In this document: positions 6,943-15,286 of the stretch, one piece after another
Layout of the letters: each line of letters begins with the position of its first letter
Position numbering within the stretch: the stretch's first letter is position 1
Source: Senegalia massiliensis
Lineage (GTDB): Bacteria; Bacillota; Clostridia; Tissierellales; SIT17
Length of the DNA stretch: 64,000 bases
Reading direction: 5' to 3'
Assembly: GCF_009911265.1 (NCBI RefSeq)
Contig: NZ_QXXA01000011.1
Span: 62,001 to 126,000, forward strand
Made by a program: the position numbers and the translations under genes
The notes under the pieces: generated by a model
Seen by the model: only the letters and a program-made list of their open reading frames with translations
Databases searched by the model: none
What the model was told of the DNA's origin: nothing

Positions 6943-6955
6943 TCCCACTCTATTG
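6943..6955. repeat. att site, left copy
   Basis: TCCCACTCTATTG, identical to 13746-13758. The flanking bases diverge directly after the repeat (ATTTA here, TTGAA in guaA), so 13 bp is the shared core. Confidence 0.82.
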
Positions 6956-7012
6956 ATTTAACAATCTATTTATATTTATTTGTTTATTTATCAATGCTTT
7001 CAGTTTATTAAA

Positions 7013-7064
7013 ATTGTTTGAAAACATTATAAATATTATCTATTGTTTGCAAAATGTTTGTAAA
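7013..7064 (+). repeat. probable integrase arm sites, left end
   Basis: Three same-orientation copies of A-T-(T)-G-T-T-T-G-A/C/T-A-A start at 7013 (ATTGTTTGAAA), 7042 (ATTGTTTGCAA) and 7053 (AATGTTTGTAA); the last two are spaced by exactly 11 bases. The same trio occurs at the other end. This arrangement is expected for the N-terminal arm-binding domain of a Tn916/lambda-type integrase. Confidence 0.6.
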
Positions 7065-7550
7065 TTATATTTTAAAGTTATCATATGAAAAATTATCATT
7101 TAATGGTTCTAAATGAGGTTCAAAAAATCTTTTAATTTCTTCTCCCTTTTCCATATAACAAGAAAAAAGATAGTCAATTTCTTCTGTACTGTATTTATAA
7201 TTTCTTCTATTAGATAATCTGCTAATAAGAATAAGATTTTGTAATATTTTGTTTAAACGTTGCTCTGCTAATTTTCTAAACTTTTGGTTCTTTTTATTTC
7301 CTCCTATATTTGAAACACTAAATTTAAAATTCAATTTTTCATTCGCAGGCTGATAAGTGTTATTTGAAAAAAAATCTTTTATCTTTTCCCCTTGTTCAAA
7401 ATATACCGAAAATAATTCATTAATTTCCTCTTTTGAATATGTGTAGTTAGTGGTGTTTGATAAATTGGCTATTAAGTTTGCTGTTTGATATATCCGCGTC
7501 ATTCTCTGCTCTGAAAGTTTAATAAATTTCAAGCTTCTATCCTCCATCAT
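7065..7550 (-). CDS. internally duplicated small protein of unknown function
   Basis: 161 residues made of two homologous halves. Each reads roughly F-x-K-L-(S/A)-E-Q-R-(M/L)-x-(R/K)-I-x-Q...L-I...L-S-N-x-x-N-Y-x-Y-S-x-E-E-I...L-F-x-x-Y-x-(E/M)-x-G-E-x-I-(K/R)-x-F-F (about residues 7-60 and 90-143), joined by a short charged linker. The repeated unit resembles a widespread short module starting F-K-x-L-A-E-x-R-V-N that I cannot assign to a function. It is the only leftward gene in the element and sits beside the left att/arm sites, a typical accessory position. Its ribosome-binding site is GGAG. It could be a regulator, antitoxin-like partner or cargo. Confidence 0.6.
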   Translation of the reverse strand: MMEDRSLKFIKLSEQRMTRIYQTANLIANLSNTTNYTYSKEEINELFSVYFEQGEKIKDFFSNNTYQPANEKLNFKFSVSNIGGNKKNQKFRKLAEQRLNKILQNLILISRLSNRRNYKYSTEEIDYLFSCYMEKGEEIKRFFEPHLEPLNDNFSYDNFKI

Positions 7551-7647
7551 TTTTTATCACTCCTTTTAATTAATATTACCATAAATCCTCTATATACTCA
7601 AAATAATATTCAAATACTTAAATAAATAAAATAAATATTAAATAATA

Positions 7648-7691
7648 TTGTATATGTATTATAAGTATGTTATACTTGTTATAAGCTTATA
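7648..7691 (+). promoter_or_regulatory. promoter with two palindromes for the element operon
   Basis: TTGTAT (7648-7653), a 17-base spacer and TATACT (7671-7676) form a plausible sigma-A promoter reading toward the gene at 7794. A 15-base palindrome AAGTAT-GTT-ATACTT (7663-7677) covers the -10, and a second perfect palindrome TATAAGCTTATA (7680-7691) covers the start region. These look like repressor operators, although no classical HTH repressor gene is recognised inside the element. Confidence 0.55.
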
Positions 7692-7793
7692 GAGTTGATT
7701 ATATAGCAATATAACTAATTATATGTATTTTGATACTCTATATTAATTAATAATCTATAATTTATAGGGATAAATTAAAAGGAGGAAAAGCAA

Positions 7794-8153
7794 ATGAGCA
7801 AAATTAAAAAATTGGAAGAAATAGAAAGAAAGGAGAGAGAAAAGAGAAATAAATTAATAGAATCAGTATATGCTATAAATTTTCCAGATGAAGTGGAAGA
7901 TTATTCAGAAGAAATAAATTATATTGAGTATTTAAAAAAACATAGACAATATATGAAAGAATTATTTAAAAATAATGATTTCTATGATTTTGAAGAAGAG
8001 AAAGTTAATAAATTACAAAATATTGAGGACATTACATTAAAACTTATGCTTTATGAAGCTAATACAGATAAACATAAGGTTTTTGGTAATAAAATGATGA
8101 AATATATTGCTCTTCTTGAAAATTATATATTTGGAGAACATGAAGCTGATTAA
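7794..8153 (+). CDS. hypothetical coiled-coil protein, first gene of the element operon
   Basis: 119 residues, strongly charged. An N-terminal helix very rich in K/E (KLEEIERKEREKRNKLIE, residues 6-23) probably forms a coiled coil, followed by acidic helical segments and a C-terminal LLENYIFGEHEAD. No signal peptide, Cys or enzyme motif. The start follows AAAAGGAGG. It heads a rightward series of small genes (to 9591) leading into the FtsK-like gene. Position and small size suggest an accessory or regulatory role in the element. I do not recognise the family. Confidence 0.6.
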   Translation: MSKIKKLEEIERKEREKRNKLIESVYAINFPDEVEDYSEEINYIEYLKKHRQYMKELFKNNDFYDFEEEKVNKLQNIEDITLKLMLYEANTDKHKVFGNKMMKYIALLENYIFGEHEAD

Positions 8154-8201
8154 TCAGCTTCTAAATCTCTTAATAAAAATTAAAATATAGGAGGTGATAC
8201 T

Positions 8202-8423
8202 ATGGAAAAGTTACCAGTAGCAAAACATTTAAATGATTTAGAGTATAAATTTCTATTAGAAACATATGCAGAACATAATTCAAGTATGGATTTTGAAGAT
8301 AGAAAAAATCACACTTTATCAGATATCACAAAAGTAGAACGTAATATCTCTGAAAATTGTTTAAACGTCTATTATAATGATGGAAATTGGTGGCACTACA
8401 CCCCTAATAAAACATGGTATTGA
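8202..8423 (+). CDS. small hypothetical protein of the element
   Basis: 73 residues with a strong AGGAGGTGAT site. The N-terminal half is helical (LNDLEYKFLLETYAEHNSS). The C-terminal half is aromatic-rich and polar, ending in D-G-N-W-W-H-Y-T-P-N-K-T-W-Y, suggesting a compact beta domain. Spacing to its neighbours is under 50 bases, so it is co-transcribed with them. Function unknown. Confidence 0.58.
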   Translation: MEKLPVAKHLNDLEYKFLLETYAEHNSSMDFEDRKNHTLSDITKVERNISENCLNVYYNDGNWWHYTPNKTWY

Positions 8424-8459
8424 TTTTAAAATTAAATTACAAGGAGGATTATTATTATT

Positions 8460-8684
8460 ATGAAAACACATGAAAGGTATGTAAAAGAATTTCATAAACA
8501 TGATTGGAAAAAAGCATTGGAAAATTCAGAAGAAGATTTCCGAAGATATGTAATTCACGCAGCTAAAAAAGATAGTGATAGTTATAAAAAATTCAATGAT
8601 TTATTTAAGAAGAAATATGGTACAAGAATTAATTATCCTACTTATTGCAGATTAGTTGCTACAGCAGTAGTAATGGGATATTAA
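8460..8684 (+). CDS. small basic hypothetical protein of the element
   Basis: 74 residues, lysine- and histidine-rich, all helical in appearance (YVKEFHKHDWKKALENSEEDFRRYVIHAAKK), with a hydrophobic C-terminal helix (YCRLVATAVVMGY). AAGGAGG lies before an A/T spacer and ATG 8460. The basic character would fit nucleic-acid contact, but no motif proves it. Part of the same operon. Confidence 0.58.
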   Translation: MKTHERYVKEFHKHDWKKALENSEEDFRRYVIHAAKKDSDSYKKFNDLFKKKYGTRINYPTYCRLVATAVVMGY

Positions 8685-8697
8685 GGAGGTGTAACTA

Positions 8698-9237
8698 ATG
8701 AATAAAAAACATTTATTAAGTATCATAGGATTAGATTTTTTTATGATTATATTCATTTCACATTATTTAACAGATAATTTAATTTTAAAAAATATATCTT
8801 ATTCGATCTATACTATGATGCAAAATAATAAGTTAACAACTGTTTCCTTAGGATTTCCACAAATATTTATATCTACCCTATTAAGTTTAATAACTATTTA
8901 TTTACTTAATTTTTTGTACTTCAAATTTGCAAAAAAAGATATACGTATTATTGGAAATAAAAACAAACGTTTCTTAATGATAATTGACTTTTTCTTAGTT
9001 GTAATAACATTTATTTTCATTCATTTTACAACTTTTGAAAAATTAAATGCTTTATGGAACTTTTATTATTACTCTAATAACATGATACATGTTCCATATT
9101 CATCAATTATTAATTTAGTAATATCTCTTATATTAGCTATGATTGTAACACCTAGTATAATAACAGTAATAAATATTTACATAAATAAATTACTTTACAA
9201 AATTAGAAAATCTAAAAAAATGAAAGGATTGATTTAA
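8698..9237 (+). CDS. four-helix membrane protein of the element
   Basis: 179 residues with four hydrophobic segments (about 4-22, 57-78, 96-117 and 141-168) and a lysine-rich C-terminal tail (NKLLYKIRKSKKMKGLI), so the C-terminus is probably cytoplasmic. No signal peptidase site, no catalytic motif. AAGGAGGTG precedes ATG 8698. The next gene starts directly after its stop codon, which points to coupled translation with the FtsK-side genes. Possible roles are a mating-pair or entry-exclusion accessory, or a small toxin/immunity membrane protein. None can be supported further. Confidence 0.55.
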   Translation: MNKKHLLSIIGLDFFMIIFISHYLTDNLILKNISYSIYTMMQNNKLTTVSLGFPQIFISTLLSLITIYLLNFLYFKFAKKDIRIIGNKNKRFLMIIDFFLVVITFIFIHFTTFEKLNALWNFYYYSNNMIHVPYSSIINLVISLILAMIVTPSIITVINIYINKLLYKIRKSKKMKGLI

Positions 9238-9591
9238 ATGGCTTTAAGAATTACCGACTTAAGGATTGATACGAAAGATTTAGGAGAGTTTATTCTAGCA
9301 AATATTTCTCCCTTCTATGAATATATTGACGGGAAAAAAAGTGATAAGCTCCTTGGCTATAGATATGACGTAGCTCTCCCTAGTAAGAAATTAGAAAAAT
9401 TAGGAGTAAAAGTTGAGAATCTTACTCCCCTAATAGATATAGAAAATGAAGAGATCCCCATAGGGATGAAAATTGACTTTCACGGCTTGGAAGTAGGTTC
9501 ATATTATATGAATGGCAATGTGCATGTGAAAGCAAAAGCAAAAAGTGTTCACATCAAAGAGGATAAAACTAATGCTTCTAAAAAAGCTTAA
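9238..9591 (+). CDS. beta-rich small protein upstream of the FtsK-like ATPase
   Basis: 117 residues. The centre reads as alternating short strands (GYRYDVALPSKKLEKLGVKVENLTPLID, then IGMKIDFHGLEVGSYYMNGNVHVKAKAKSVHI). The tail is lysine-rich. In Tn916 and ICEBs1, compact DUF961-type proteins occupy the same place directly before the TcpA/FtsK gene. This protein matches them in size, location and beta-rich look, but I cannot confirm sequence homology. It begins one base after the preceding stop and overlaps the next start by 20 bases. Confidence 0.55.
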   Translation: MALRITDLRIDTKDLGEFILANISPFYEYIDGKKSDKLLGYRYDVALPSKKLEKLGVKVENLTPLIDIENEEIPIGMKIDFHGLEVGSYYMNGNVHVKAKAKSVHIKEDKTNASKKA

Positions 9592-10927
9592 AAAATTAAA
9601 GAAAAATGATGAGGCTACCTTCAGGGTAGTCTCACTATTAAATAAAAATTTCCCTTGGGAAATCCTAAGAACATTTATATATATAATTCTTACTATTTTA
9701 GTTACATATATATTTAATAAAATTTTTAATGTACTTCCATTATCTATAATAGGATTAGGAGATATAATACTATTTCCTTTATGGCTCTATACTATTTATA
9801 AAATATGGAAAAGATATTTTAAATTTAGAAATAAAACTTCTTATGAAAAACAATTAAGGTACTTCCTAAAAGCTAATAATTTTTTCGAGAATGAAATAAT
9901 AGAATATGAAACTTTTGAAAATGGACGCATAAAAAAGCAAAATGAAAAAATTATTGTATCTTCTGCCAGATTGGGAGTTTTAGAAGAAGATGAGAAAATA
10001 AGAATAAGAGCATATAAGGATGCTAATATCTTCACGGAGAAGATGTCAGATTTAGACAGTGGATTAAGTGCCTTATTAGGCTTAGAAATAGATAATAAGT
10101 TAGATACTATTACCCATACAGATTATATATTTAAAAAAGTAAAAGATAAAAGAATAATTGTCTCTAGTGAAAATCAAAAAGAGAATAATTCTGTAGATTT
10201 ACCATTAAATAACAATTTAAACTGGAATATACTCAAGCAACCCCATTTATTATTAGCAGGAGTTACTGGAAGTGGAAAAACAACATTTTTGAATTACCTT
10301 ATAATCGAAATCAAGAAAATGAACGCAGAGTTATTCATATGCGACCCAAAAAGGTCTGATTTATCAAGTTTAAAGCATTATTTAGGTGATGATTATGTAG
10401 CAAGTGAAGTCAATAATATAGCTAAATTATCTCGTATAGTAAAAGAAGTTATGACAAATAGATTTATAGAGTATAAAGAAAATCCTGACAAATTTTCCTA
10501 TGGTTATTCATACGTGGACTACGGTTTAAAACCAGTATTTTTAATATTTGATGAATTAGGAGCCTTTAGAGCAGGAGCAGATAAGAAAGTATTTCAAGAA
10601 ACAATGAAAAATCTTACAGAAGTGATATTAAAAGGTCGTGAAATGGGAGTGTTTGTAGTCTTATCGACACAGCAACCAAATTCTTCCAATATACCAACAG
10701 AGCTACGAGATAACCTTTCTGTACGTCTTGCAATGGGTAATATGAGTTCTGAAGCCTATCGTATGGTCTTTGGTGATAGTTTAGCTGATTTACAGACTAT
10801 TAATGCCATGGGGGCTGGTTATATCTTCTTAGACGGTCAAGGTTGGCAGTTACCAAAATATTTTGAAGCACCATACTTAGATTATGAAAATTTTGATTTT
10901 ATAGAAGAATTAAAAAAGTATAAATAA
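9572..10927 (+). CDS. FtsK/SpoIIIE-type DNA translocase (TcpA-like coupling protein)
   Basis: A 451-residue membrane-anchored P-loop ATPase that moves DNA, close in length to Tn916 Orf21/TcpA. Two hydrophobic helices (about 28-51 and 53-75) precede the motor domain. Walker A is GVTGSGKTT, Walker B FLIFDELGAF, and the following STQQPNSSNIPTELRDN is the typical FtsK sensor/arm region. ATG 9572 with AAAGAGG is preferred to an in-frame GTG at 9545. It overlaps the preceding gene, so translation is coupled. With the HUH protein downstream it probably handles transfer of the excised element, either through a co-resident conjugation machine or on its own as in AICEs. Confidence 0.87.
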   Translation: MLLKKLKKLKKNDEATFRVVSLLNKNFPWEILRTFIYIILTILVTYIFNKIFNVLPLSIIGLGDIILFPLWLYTIYKIWKRYFKFRNKTSYEKQLRYFLKANNFFENEIIEYETFENGRIKKQNEKIIVSSARLGVLEEDEKIRIRAYKDANIFTEKMSDLDSGLSALLGLEIDNKLDTITHTDYIFKKVKDKRIIVSSENQKENNSVDLPLNNNLNWNILKQPHLLLAGVTGSGKTTFLNYLIIEIKKMNAELFICDPKRSDLSSLKHYLGDDYVASEVNNIAKLSRIVKEVMTNRFIEYKENPDKFSYGYSYVDYGLKPVFLIFDELGAFRAGADKKVFQETMKNLTEVILKGREMGVFVVLSTQQPNSSNIPTELRDNLSVRLAMGNMSSEAYRMVFGDSLADLQTINAMGAGYIFLDGQGWQLPKYFEAPYLDYENFDFIEELKKYK

Positions 10928-10947
10928 AAACAAATCTTTAAAAACAA

Positions 10948-11057
10948 ACTTTATTTTTTTAATGGGTTTCTAGCGGGGGTGTGCCCCCGGAGCGGAGCGT
11001 TAGAATACCTGTTAAAAAAATAAAGTCCGAAGAGCAAAAGGCTTTTCTTTGCTCTTC
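10948..11057 (+). other. nested inverted repeats, candidate replication/transfer origin
   Basis: This gap between the ATPase and rep genes holds three hairpins. Outer arms of 15 bp (10948-10962 and 11012-11026, ACTTTATTTTTTTAA) enclose a G/C-rich perfect 6-bp stem CGGGGG/CCCCCG with a TGTG loop (10974-10989). A second hairpin follows with 10-bp arms GAAGAGCAAA/TTTGCTCTTC (11029-11057). GC content jumps sharply against the surrounding A/T. HUH Rep/relaxase nick sites are commonly exposed in such hairpins directly upstream of the rep gene. Confidence 0.6.
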
Positions 11058-11133
11058 TATCTTAACTAGATATATAGGACAACAAGTGGCGAAAAACTTT
11101 GATTTCCACTAATGGTAAAAAGTAGGTGATAAA

Positions 11134-11985
11134 CTGAAAAAAGTTTTCCAATCTTATAATGTAAAGACTATTGAAACTCCTACTACTATTGAGATATATG
11201 AATATCTTGATGACCCAGTTATTTATTCTCTAGGTTCACATGACGAAGAACTATTATCAGATTATATCCATAGTGAAGAAAATGATGATGAACAACAGAA
11301 AAAAGAAGATGATAAAAAAGCACTTAAACACTATGACGCCTTAAGAAGAAAACAAAAGCATTATGAAGCTATGAGATGGGAAATAGCTAGGATAATAGAT
11401 TGTAATTTTGATAATGATACTAAATTCATGACACTAACTTTTAGAGATAATATAAAAGATGTAAGTTATACAAATAAAGAACTTAAAAAATTTATTAAGA
11501 GATTGAATTATAATTTATACAAGACCAAGAAACATCATTTAAAATATCTAGCTGTTTGGGAAAAGCAAAAAAGAGGAGCAATACACTATCATATTATATT
11601 CTTTGATTTTCCATATATAGAAGCAATAAAGCTTGAGCAGATCTGGTCACAAGGGTTTATAAAAATAAATAAAATAGATGTAGATTCAAAGGATAATAGA
11701 GGTCGATATGTAAGTAAGTATTTTTCAAAAGATATAGATGAAAAAGATTATAAACAAAAAGCATTTTTCAAATCTCAAAATTTGATTTTACCTGAAATAA
11801 AACATTTCAATACATATGGTGAAAAGCCTTTTGATTTAGAAGAAAAAAATATTGTTTATACAAAAACATATACACGTAAAGTACCAAAATTTGAATATGG
11901 AGGAATTGATATTTCTTTTAAAGAGAGTACAGTAAAATATACTAAAATTAGAAAGGAAGATATAAAAAATGATAATGATAACTAA
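11134..11985 (+). CDS. HUH-family replication/relaxase-like initiator
   Basis: 283 residues if started at CTG 11134, which has TAGGTGAT five bases upstream. A later ATG at 11371 has no good site and would drop about 79 codons of open frame. Seen motifs: F-M-T-L-T-F (motif 1), A-I-H-Y-H-I-I-F-F-D (the HUH metal-binding pair, motif 2) and R-Y-V-S-K-Y-F-S-K (catalytic Tyr region, motif 3). This resembles the ORF2/G2P-like rolling-circle Rep class. It should nick the excised circular element at the adjacent palindromic region and start rolling-circle replication or transfer. Overlaps the next gene. Confidence 0.8.
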   Translation: MKKVFQSYNVKTIETPTTIEIYEYLDDPVIYSLGSHDEELLSDYIHSEENDDEQQKKEDDKKALKHYDALRRKQKHYEAMRWEIARIIDCNFDNDTKFMTLTFRDNIKDVSYTNKELKKFIKRLNYNLYKTKKHHLKYLAVWEKQKRGAIHYHIIFFDFPYIEAIKLEQIWSQGFIKINKIDVDSKDNRGRYVSKYFSKDIDEKDYKQKAFFKSQNLILPEIKHFNTYGEKPFDLEEKNIVYTKTYTRKVPKFEYGGIDISFKESTVKYTKIRKEDIKNDNDN

Positions 11986-12190
11986 AAATGATTTAATAGA
12001 AAAATTAGGTTTTGGACCGAGTCAATCTTCTGACATTATAAGAAAAGCTAAATATTTAATGGTAAATAAAGGATATGGCTATTATGAAAATCGTAGATTA
12101 GGCAGAGTCCCAATTGAAGCAGTTGAAGAGATACTCGGGATTGAATTATTAGATAATAAAGGAGTATTTACTAATGCCGAAAATATCTAA
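11969..12190 (+). CDS. DUF3173 family protein, probable excision/DNA-binding factor
   Basis: 73 residues with the DUF3173 hallmark K-x-D-L-I-E-K-L-G-F...Q-S-x-D-I-I-R-x-A-K...M-V-N-K-G-Y...Y-x-N-R-R-L-G-R-V-P-x-E-A-V-E-E-I-L-G-I. The family is found next to tyrosine integrases of integrative elements and looks like a small winged/HTH protein, so an excisionase or directionality role is the usual guess. It overlaps rep by 17 bases and int by 17 bases, forming a rep-DUF3173-int translational unit. Confidence 0.8.
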   Translation: MIMITKNDLIEKLGFGPSQSSDIIRKAKYLMVNKGYGYYENRRLGRVPIEAVEEILGIELLDNKGVFTNAENI

Positions 12191-13337
12191 TGTTTATCAA
12201 GATAAGAGAAACGGGAAATGGTATTTTGTCGCTAACCTAGGCTATGATAAAAATGGTAAACGTCTACAACATTGGAAAAGAGGTTTTTCAACACAAAAAG
12301 AAGCAAAATCAGCTTATGACGAATATATGAGTAATCATTCAAAATCATCTGTTAAAATTAACTCTACTATGTATTATGAAGAATTTTATAAAACATATTT
12401 TGAACCCGATTATAAGCGTTCAGTAGCCCAAAGTACTTTTGAAAATAGAATTTCATCAATGAGATTACATTTTTCTTATTTTTACAAGAAAAAATTAAAA
12501 GATATAAATGCTCCTATGCTTAAAAAATGGCAAAATCATTTATCAGAAAAATATTCAAATGGTTACATAAGAGCAACATATGGATTATTCCAAAAAAGTT
12601 TAGATTTAGCCGTAATACTTGGATTATTACAGAAAAATGTAGCAAAGCAAGTCGGAAATGTGAGAAAAGAAAAGAAAAAAGTCCAATTCTGGACACTTGA
12701 AGAATTCGAAAAGGTCATTTCTACCTTTGATACCTCTGATTATTATGAACATTGCATATTTACTATAATATGGCTCTTGTTTATGACCGGATTAAGAATG
12801 GGTGAAGCACAAGCATTAGAATGGAATGATATAGATTTCAAAGAAAAAACATTAAAAGTGTCTAAGTCTATGTATTACAAAAATTCTGATGAATATTATA
12901 TAAACGAGCCTAAAACAAAAGCAGGAAATCGAGTAATTGCATTAGATGATGATACAATTTATTATTTGCAAAAATGGAAAGAGATACAAAGTAAAAATAT
13001 AATTACTAAATATGCACTCTCATACAATGGATTACCAATATATAGGCATGCTCCTCGGAAGTTTATAAGGACTCATAGCAAGTTGGCAGGTGTTCATTTT
13101 ATAAAAACTCATGCTTTAAGGCATTCCCACGCTTCACTATTAATATCATTAGGAGAAAATGCTCTAGTAATAAGAGACCGATTAGGACATGAAGATATTG
13201 AAACAACTCTAGGAACTTATGGACACCTATACCCTAACATTAACAAACAAGTAGCAAAAAAATTAAATAGTATCGTAACAGTTAGTAAAAATGAATTTAA
13301 ACGTAAATTAACATCAAATCAATATGTAAAACGTTAA
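12174..13337 (+). CDS. int: tyrosine site-specific integrase
   Basis: 387 residues, the usual length of Tn916-type integrases. The N-terminal arm-binding domain (residues 1-45, RNGKWYFVANLGYDKNGKRLQHWKRGF) is followed by a SAM-like core-binding domain (about 60-165). The catalytic domain has Arg in TGLRMGEAQAL, His-x-x-Arg in HALRHSHASLL, and LGHEDIETTLGTYGHLY carrying the late His and the nucleophilic Tyr. It should recombine the 13-bp guaA core. AAAGGAGT precedes ATG 12174. No damage is seen, so the element may still be excisable. Confidence 0.92.
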   Translation: MPKISNVYQDKRNGKWYFVANLGYDKNGKRLQHWKRGFSTQKEAKSAYDEYMSNHSKSSVKINSTMYYEEFYKTYFEPDYKRSVAQSTFENRISSMRLHFSYFYKKKLKDINAPMLKKWQNHLSEKYSNGYIRATYGLFQKSLDLAVILGLLQKNVAKQVGNVRKEKKKVQFWTLEEFEKVISTFDTSDYYEHCIFTIIWLLFMTGLRMGEAQALEWNDIDFKEKTLKVSKSMYYKNSDEYYINEPKTKAGNRVIALDDDTIYYLQKWKEIQSKNIITKYALSYNGLPIYRHAPRKFIRTHSKLAGVHFIKTHALRHSHASLLISLGENALVIRDRLGHEDIETTLGTYGHLYPNINKQVAKKLNSIVTVSKNEFKRKLTSNQYVKR

Positions 13338-13406
13338 GCAGAAAACAAAAGCTTTGGGCAATAATGTAAAGAGTAAAGTTAGTTATCAAAAAGGAGTGTT
13401 GAGAAA

Positions 13407-13634
13407 ATGAGTCAATTACCAATCATAGTAAGACAATTAACTGATGACCTCAATAAGATAGTAGAAAATATGGAGAATAAAAAAGATGAAGACGACGATA
13501 TTTCCATGCTTCTTAGTGCAGGCATTATTTTAGAAGATATTAAAAAGCTTCTTAATAAAAATCCAGTAGTACGATATGATTCAGAAAAAAACATACTTTA
13601 TTTATTTTTTCCAGATGGGAGAAAAGAATATTAA
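13407..13634 (+). CDS. small acidic protein next to the integrase
   Basis: 75 residues: an acidic helical N-terminal part (LTDDLNKIVENMENKKDEDDDISMLLSAGIILEDIKKLL) and a short strand-like tail (VRYDSEKNILYLFFPDGRKEY). AAAAGGAGTG lies before ATG 13407. It lies between int and the right-end arm sites. No family recognised. Size and location would fit an excision factor or an accessory regulator. Confidence 0.5.
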   Translation: MSQLPIIVRQLTDDLNKIVENMENKKDEDDDISMLLSAGIILEDIKKLLNKNPVVRYDSEKNILYLFFPDGRKEY

Positions 13635-13644
13635 TAATAGTTTT

Positions 13645-13686
13645 ATTGTTTGAATAATCTAGGATTGTTTGCAATATGTTTGCAAT
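13645..13686 (+). repeat. probable integrase arm sites, right end
   Basis: Three copies mirror the left end: ATTGTTTGAAT (13645), ATTGTTTGCAA (13664) and TATGTTTGCAA (13675). The last two are again 11 bases apart and in the same orientation. Confidence 0.6.
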
Positions 13687-13695
13687 ATCATAAAA

Positions 13696-13736
13696 AAAAG
13701 CATGAAAACCTTGATATACAAAGGCTTCATGCTTTT
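13696..13736 (-). terminator. guaA terminator supplied by the element
   Basis: 11-bp arms (AAAAGCATGAA and TTCATGCTTTT) with an inner CCTT/AAGG pair form a hairpin followed on the minus strand by a run of eight T. It lies 5 bases past the guaA stop codon but inside the element, left of the att core, so the integrated element ends guaA transcription. It may also act on int-side transcripts. Confidence 0.8.
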
Positions 13737-13741
13737 AATTA

Positions 13742-15286
13742 TTATTCCCACTCTATTGTTGAAGGTGGTTTACTTGTTATATCATATACTATTCTATTTA
13801 CTCCATCTACATTGTTAACTATCTTATTTGATGCTCTTTCTAATACTTCATATGGTATTCTTGCCCAATCACTTGTCATTCCATCTGAACTGTTAACTGC
13901 ACGAAGTCCAACTGTATGAGCATAAGTTCTACCATCTCCCATTACTCCAACACTTTTTATATTAGGTAATACTGCAAAGTATTGCCATATACTATTTTCA
14001 AGTCCAGCTTTTTTTATTTCTTCTCTAAATATATAATCTGCTTCTCTTACTATATGAAGCTTTTCTTCTGTTATTTCACCTAAAACTCTTATTGCAAGTC
14101 CTGGTCCTGGGAATGGTTGCCTCATTATTATATCATCAGGCATATTAAGTGCTTTTCCAAGTACTCTTACTTCATCTTTAAATAATTCTCTTAAAGGTTC
14201 TACAAGTTCAAAATCTACATCTTCTGGAAGTCCTCCTACATTATGATGTGATTTTATAACTTCTGCTTTATCTGTTCCACTTTCAATTACATCAGGATAA
14301 ATTGTACCTTGAACAAGATAATCAATATCCTTAAATTCTTTTTTTAACTTTTCTTTTTCTCTTTCAAATACTCTTATAAATTCTTCACCAATAATTTTTC
14401 TTTTAGTTTCAGGGTCTGTTACGCCTTCTAATTTTGATAAGAATATATCCTGTGCATTTACTCTTATAAGGTTCATGTCAAATCTTTCTTTAAATACTTT
14501 TTCTACTTGATCCCCTTCATCTTTTCTAAGTAGTCCATGATCTACAAATATACATGTAAGATTTTTGCCTATTGCTTTATGAACAAGTACTGCTGCAACT
14601 GATGAATCTACTCCACCAGATAATGCACATATTGCTCTTTTATCTCCTATTTGATTTTTAATTCTTTGGATTTCTTCTTCAGCAAAATCTCCCATATTCC
14701 AATCTTCTTTTAAATCACATACATTATATAGGAAGTTTCTTATCATATCTGTTCCTTTTTCTGTGTGATTAACTTCTGGATGAAATTGAATTGCATATAT
14801 TTTCTTTTCACTATTTTTCATAGCTGCTACTGGACAAGAATCTGTATTCGCTGTTACTTCAAATCCTTCTGGTAATTCACTTATAAAATCTGTATGACTC
14901 ATCCAACAATTTAAATTGTCACCTAAATCTTTGAATATTCCTTCATCATCTAATATATTTAGTTCTGTTTTTCCATATTCTCTTTTTTCAGCTCTCATAA
15001 CTTTTCCACCAAATTGTTCTGCTATTAATTGGCCACCATAACATATTCCAAGTATTGGAGCATTCAATGAAAATATTTCTGAACTTACTTTAGGAGAACT
15101 CTCCCCGTACACGCTATTTGGTCCTCCTGAGAATATTATTCCATCAGGATTTAGAGATTTTATTTTTTCTACATCTGTGTCATATGGTAATATTTCGCAG
15201 AATATTCCTGCTTCTCTTACTCTTCTTGCTATTAATTGACTATATTGTCCACCAAAATCTAGTATTAATATATAATTATTTTTCAT
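13742..15286 (-). CDS. guaA: GMP synthase (glutamine-hydrolysing)
   Basis: 514 residues. The N-terminal class I amidotransferase has the catalytic Cys in [15 protein letters not shown] and His/Glu in QFHPEVNH. The ATP-pyrophosphatase domain has the P-loop [17 protein letters not shown]. The C-terminal dimerisation domain ends in KPPSTIEWE. It converts XMP to GMP with glutamine. It starts 11 bases after the guaB stop, forming a guaBA operon under the guanine riboswitch. The last codons coincide with the attachment core of the mobile element, and the reading frame is preserved. Confidence 0.97.
13746..13758. repeat. att site, right copy, within guaA
   Basis: TCCCACTCTATTG, the plus-strand view of the guaA codons for the end of S-T-I-E-W-E. 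Identical to 6943-6955. Confidence 0.85.

Follow-up and report, generated by a model that had tools for sequence, protein, structure and literature searches.

A probable rolling-circle replication origin upstream of an HUH Rep gene in a small integrative element of Senegalia massiliensis

A nested palindrome of unusual base composition lies upstream of an HUH Rep gene in Senegalia massiliensis, which raises the question of whether it is an origin at which the encoded protein acts and, if so, of what kind and where the cut would fall. We addressed this question in a 64,000-nt stretch of contig NZ_QXXA01000011.1 (positions 62,001 to 126,000), the whole of which we call the window. The locus belongs to a 6.8-kb mobile element (6943–13758) at the 3' end of guaA, with limits proposed from a 13-bp direct repeat. 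From left to right, the element carries small genes, an FtsK/TcpA-like ATPase gene, two hairpins, the HUH Rep gene, a DUF3173 gene and a tyrosine integrase gene (Table 1); the small gene listed there has no match in Pfam, NCBIfam or PHROGs. In a genome of the same genus (G001), the sequences flanking the element match separately, about 13.2 kb apart (contig C1, 825343–838856), so that a different insertion seems to occupy the same guaA site there, and in two further genomes (G002 and G003) a good match was obtained for the guaA-side flank only.

Table 1. Positions in the window of the element's proposed ends, genes and origin features.
Feature	Position	Strand	Remarks
Left copy of 13-bp direct repeat, TCCCACTCTATTG	6943–6955	none	Proposed left end of element; use of the site supported by G001 flanks
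Small gene, DUF961-like by eye only	9238–9591	plus	A relative precedes Rep in 16 of 45 loci
FtsK/TcpA-like ATPase, possible coupling protein	9545–10927	plus	PF01580, 30.2 bits (cut-off 24)
Hairpin 1: outer A/T stem, inner GC hairpin (10974–10989), 3' part partly unpaired, GGAGCGGAG	10948–11026	plus	
Hairpin 2, 10 bp	11029–11057	plus	Ends 12 nt 5' of candidate cut
Conserved origin motif, candidate cut CTAG^ATATA at 11069/11070	11061–11093	plus	Cut placed by analogy with phiX174 and pC194
HUH Rep (REP_ORF2-G2P), probable CTG start	11134–11985	plus	HYH 151–153, Y192, Y196
DUF3173 gene, presumably excisionase-like from its position	11969–12190	plus	PF11372, E 4.6e-26
Tyrosine integrase	12174–13337	plus	PF00589, E 1e-21
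guaA frame	13742–15286	minus	Named by eye
Right copy of 13-bp direct repeat	13746–13758	none	Within guaA 3' end

The layout has precedents. Class 3 of the streptococcal integrative and mobilizable elements (IMEs) consists of Rel_PHA00330, TcpA, an excisionase and a tyrosine integrase (PMC5357655), and our element shares its compact order of TcpA-like protein, RCR-type Rep, small gene and tyrosine integrase, with DUF3173 placed in the excisionase role by position only. Both also sit at the 3' end of a housekeeping gene between direct repeats, here the 13-bp repeat at guaA, a site that the G001 flanks also indicate; some streptococcal IMEs likewise use guaA. The two differ in that the host of our element is not a streptococcus. 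The class relaxase carries domain PHA00330; the window Rep matches PF23343, the sole family above its cut-off, and phrog_3419. The actinomycete AICEs of the pSAM2 type likewise combine a Rep, an FtsK/TraB-like protein and an integrase, and profiles for RepSA (E 1.1e-5) and TraB (E 7e-10) match the element weakly, both below their curated cut-offs.

The nested palindrome and the second hairpin are real features of this DNA. The arms of the first (10948–10967 and 11007–11026) form a 20-nt inverted repeat that is 90% complementary, whose outer 15 nt are seen by inspection to be fully paired, as the original prediction of 15-bp A/T arms around a GC-rich hairpin had it; the inner core, CGGGGGTGTGCCCCCG (10974–10989), occurs once in the 3.1-Mb genome. 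The 10-bp hairpin said to follow is likewise perfect (arms 11029–11038 and 11048–11057), and a base composition unlike the surroundings is borne out by a G+C content of 62% in 10966–11007 against 27% across the element. Folded as single-stranded DNA, 10940–11075 reaches -33.3 kcal/mol, compared with -12.5 (sd 2.7) for 200 dinucleotide shuffles, none of which folds as well (z -7.78); the opposite strand gives z -7.04 and an RNA fold z -6.41. The HUH gene does lie 3' of the structure, but not directly, as the Rep frame opens 77 nt beyond hairpin 2. This start is 65 nt 3' of the candidate cut described below, in line with the 62–90 nt seen in relatives. Its codon appears to be CTG (11134–11136), preceded by a ribosome-binding-like AGGTGAT stretch; the window frame offers no ATG, GTG or TTG at the position where the relatives begin.

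The HYH motif and both tyrosines of Rep, spaced YxxKY, are invariant in 27 sequences (alignment A5, 26 of 72 genome loci plus the window Rep). The predicted structure (mean pLDDT 84.1) has an HUH fold, its best matches being HUH nucleases: SIRV1 ORF119 (Z 9.3), a Rep, a Helitron protein (Z 7.2) and AAV Rep (Z 6.7). Only the first of these stands out, since Z scores under 8 may reflect a common arrangement and a Foldseek search with the model returned no match at E 0.001 or better; a sequence search of the PDB gave just two chance-level matches. Relatives of Rep were found in 65 plasmid records, 4 phage records and 72 genome-contig loci. The genome loci came from an alignment query, which found none in viral contigs, and the single Rep sequence as query found none in genome or viral contigs. 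Among 249 genomes of the order, 6 have a match, the best beyond the element's own genome being 34% identical over partial length. Enterococcus accounts for 48 of the 65 plasmid records.

When the sequence upstream of Rep was read in 45 closer loci together with three plasmid or phage records (L004, L005 and L121) and the Fusobacterium nucleatum plasmid pKH9, a strong motif emerged beyond the 3' side of the hairpins; in most loci it reads ACTTGATWTATARRACAACATC and continues with CGAAAA or GAGAA. The window reads TTAACTAG^ATATATAGGACAACA 12 nt beyond hairpin 2, where the caret marks the candidate cut (11069^11070), and the core in relatives is mostly ACTTG^ATWTATARRACAACA. A position model built from 24 distinct sites, with the window left out, scores 11061–11093 at 37.9 bits, and the runner-up on either strand of the 64 kb reaches 7.7 bits. 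The motif is present in 42 of the 45 closer loci (missing in L151, L158 and L161), most of which helped to train the model, although the window and L167 did not. A strict upstream pattern had missed 13 sequences (L004, L135, L145, L151, L157, L158, L160, L161 and L163–L167), and these were read directly or scored with the model. By model scoring the motif is absent from plasmid pHT926 and from all 27 distant Rep loci (L168–L194), a group with members in metagenome-assembled genomes named Falkowbacteria, Dojkabacteria and Actinobacteria. In the plasmid regions L004 and L121, Rep, motif and integrase occur together, and no annotated FtsK gene adjoins Rep. L005 (MT839696), a 4.1-kb faecal record labelled 'Bacteriophage sp.', has Rep, the motif and an integrase-like frame, and looks more like a mobile element than a phage.

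The exact motif pattern keeps close company with this Rep. It matched one of 398 genomes of the window's phylum, the element's own; it gave 21 matches among 105 genomes (15 with a match) from the family to which an Enterococcus locus belongs, and 12 matches in 9 of 10 genomes with known loci. Seven matches are common to the last two sets, which leaves 27 distinct ones, and every one sits 62–90 bp 5' of a Rep gene, counting one locus (L220) in which Rep aligns over residues 2–83 only. No exact match occurs in the viral contigs. The motif-bearing loci come from enterococci, including E. faecium plasmid records, from gut Lachnospiraceae and from bacilli, and a literature search for the printed motif strings returned nothing on this subject among the matches listed. 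The motif can serve as a specific sequence tag for finding such elements. The hairpin core, which the original prediction had put forward as the search string, proved to be no family signature: its 14-nt form occurs in 113 viral-contig stretches, in which no motif score exceeds 12.9 (L006) and about 800 nt separate the core from the motif-like site. Searches with more extended core or arm patterns gave no matches, and a DNA similarity search of plasmids with 10900–11140 found nothing.

The motif resembles known cut sites. The phiX174 record places the origin of viral strand synthesis at the A following AACTTG in AACTTGATATTAATAACAC, that is, AACTTG^ATAT, and AACTTGATAT is common to this origin and to the motif of the relatives. 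Gene A of phiX174 has the same two-tyrosine spacing as the window Rep. The comparison with phiX174 covers the letters of the origin; the Rep families differ, and the window reads CTAG. On the minus strand of pC194, a Rep_1 plasmid, a hairpin is followed by TTATCTTGATAATA, or TTATCTTG^ATAATA, with a CTTGATA core; the cut printed for pC194 in PMC5037232 agrees with this reading, and CTTGATA is described as the conserved Rep_1 nick site in PMC10378824. Here the likeness lies in the hairpin and the cut; the window Rep is REP_ORF2-G2P and not Rep_1, and the window has CTAGATA in place of the CTTGATA core. Profile searches place Rep in neither Rep_1 nor Phage_GPA, so the cut position rests on analogy. 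The hairpin 5' of the cut reads TTGAGCGAAGCGAAA in L163 (4900–4945) and TTGAGCGTAGCGAAAA in pC194 (L213, minus strand), a likeness between otherwise different origins. Plasmid pKH9, with a Rep 41% identical to the window Rep over the matched part, also has an FtsK gene, a nested hairpin, a second hairpin and TATACTTGATATATAGG. Unlike the window element, it is a free plasmid, and its weaker motif (18.4) lies 3' of the FtsK gene and is separated from Rep by about 1.4 kb that includes two genes, one of them a toxin gene.

We consider it likely that the motif region (11061–11093) and the two hairpins together make up a double-strand origin (dso) for rolling-circle replication of this small integrative element, at which the HUH Rep encoded downstream acts. 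Copying of the element very probably starts here, as the conserved site closely resembles the cutting site of rolling-circle phages and plasmids. After excision, Rep would cut the plus strand at CTAG^ATATA and remain attached to the 5' end, leaving a free 3' end to prime leading-strand synthesis. After one round, the displaced plus strand would end in hairpin 1, hairpin 2 and the motif, and the folded hairpins could help Rep to find the restored origin, make a second cut and close the circle. The original prediction was right in kind and is partly supported: origin function and the link to the adjacent HUH Rep are well supported, whereas the nick-like motif falls outside both hairpins and beyond the interval first put forward. 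The comparison with known origins that it called for holds for AACTTGATAT and CTTGATA but not for the CTAG core of the window. Weighing against a dso are this CTAG, the 3 of 45 closer loci, the 27 of 27 distant loci and pHT926 that lack the motif, the weak folds of 6 of 36 sequences (below) and the motif placement in pKH9.

The original prediction had left the choice between an oriT and a double-strand origin, and the latter half is the better supported. An oriT is typically built of a hairpin, then about 10 nt, then the cut, and the hairpin, gap and cut of this site are spaced in the same way; together with the TcpA-like gene that precedes the site in the window, this would fit a locus that is primarily an oriT, in which Rep is a relaxase, the hairpins are the inverted repeats that precede nic on its 5' side, and vegetative copying comes second. 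Coluzzi et al. indeed treat the RCR-type Reps of IMEs as putative relaxases, and the parts of that paper covered here name no origin for class 3 (PMC5357655). Still, the motif is found in 42 of 45 loci, compared with an FtsK relative upstream of Rep in just 8 of 45 and an integrase relative downstream in 28 of 45 (counts in which some contigs end early and remote relatives may be missed). As the motif is far more constant than the FtsK gene and small plasmids hold related Reps, Rep-driven replication of the circle is most likely the basic role, and we regard a primary oriT as quite unlikely. A dual role is plausible for the members bearing an FtsK/TcpA-like gene, in keeping with what Coluzzi et al. 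propose for the class, and the same Rep-bound strand may there feed transfer through the pore of a helper. With a precise candidate cut site and its flanking structure defined, both replication and transfer can be tested directly in such elements.

To see how far the structure extends beyond the window, we compared folds in a hand-picked set of 36 sequences: the window, L004, L121, pKH9 and, once 10 near-duplicates had been set aside from the 42 motif-bearing loci, the remaining 32. L005 is not in this set. In 20 of the 36, many of them enterococcal and alike, the single best fold has a 79–101-nt domain followed by a 16–29-nt domain ending 10–12 nt 5' of the cut. The gap from hairpin to cut is 10–12 nt in 24 sequences and 5–17 nt in the remainder, and a single hairpin only was seen in L005, L132 and L162. 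Thirty of the 36 fold with z below -3 relative to shuffles, the others being L123, L124, L157 and L164–L166. By eye, the stem sequences are unrelated among the window, the enterococci, Lachnospiraceae and pKH9, and an arrangement of outer stem, 5' inner hairpin and 3' unpaired stretch recurs in L124, L160, L163, L166 and pKH9. Covariation was examined in alignments A2, A3 and A4 (14, 5 and 8 loci; A2 also holds L004 and L121). Among the enterococcal sequences, compensatory changes on both sides occur in 11 of 44 pairs, a number reached in none of 500 shuffles. For the remaining two groups, all shuffles are exceeded in the share of paired cells, the cells changed on both sides and the covariation score, whereas the pairs changed on both sides (matched by 81 and 20 of 500 shuffles) and the pair types (matched by 141 and 343) do not separate from them.

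The plus strand gives the more stable fold in 34 of the 36 (exceptions L131 and L145), with 112 G-T pairs compared with 47 on the other strand, although the loci are related, so that these tests are not independent, and base composition may contribute to the bias. Both features suit a single folded strand, of displaced DNA or of RNA, better than a cruciform, and the idea of a cruciform holding the nick is disfavoured by the strand preference and by the position of the motif outside the palindrome. RNA enters here because covariation fits it as well as DNA: a structured leader controlling Rep expression, with the motif as part of it, would also agree with the location 5' of rep and the many G-T pairs of the plus strand fold. 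We nevertheless judge such a leader very unlikely, as it leaves the match of the motif to the phiX174 cut region unexplained and no Rfam family is reached at its gathering score. Four Rfam matches at E up to 1 were obtained (best 28.4 bits against a threshold of 55); we attribute them, including the best two (E 0.00036 and 0.0073), to chance, as they fall far under the gathering scores and the families make no sense here.

Hairpin 1 might instead be a single-strand origin (sso), with the dso confined to hairpin 2 and the motif. It is a long imperfect hairpin of the plus strand, and its position fits the usual place of an sso, just upstream of the dso (Khan 2005 as quoted in PMC5037232). However, the ssoA signature CS-6 (TAGCGA/T) is not enriched in the set, being present in 2 of 36 loci compared with 2.7 in shuffles, and it is absent from the 150 nt 5' of the motif in the window. 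We therefore hold this division of the site to be possible but doubtful; hairpin 1 may act in termination or as RNA, or may belong to an sso type other than ssoA. Far less credible, and in our view extremely improbable, is the simple terminator that the original prediction named as its own refutation, here one ending transcription of the FtsK gene. Two weak terminator-like matches do fall at hairpin 2 (one on the minus strand, one with a partial stem on the plus strand) against 0.3 in shuffles, but no plus-strand T tract after the stem is kept in relatives: 0 of 5 scanned have a plus-strand site, and L127 has one minus-strand match. A terminator would also not account for the motif.

The window departs from its relatives at the core itself, reading CTAG (11066–11070) where 41 of the 42 motif-bearing close loci read CTTG, and the change lets a weak 5-bp stem form across the cut site. 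As the apparent CTG start of Rep also differs from the relatives, the origin or Rep could be losing function in a decaying copy, which would be compatible with a dso. Against this, the FtsK, Rep, DUF3173 and integrase frames are all open, both hairpins are intact, and L167, with TTTA, has a core that is likewise off consensus; we think decay unlikely.

For the dso itself, a broader proposal can be made, which we offer as speculation and consider rather more doubtful than not. In a widespread but little-studied class of Rep-driven elements, a single site would double as dso and oriT. Hairpin 1, kept in shape but not in sequence, would be a signal on the displaced plus strand by which Rep, the host primase or the coupling ATPase registers that synthesis of the full strand is complete, and termination, second-strand synthesis and transfer would thereby be sorted by one folded strand. 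Separately, the unpaired stretch 3' of the inner hairpin contains [GA]GTGGAAC in 5 of the 36 sequences (L160, L163, L164, L166 and L122; 0.16 expected from shuffles), a possible protein or primase signal.
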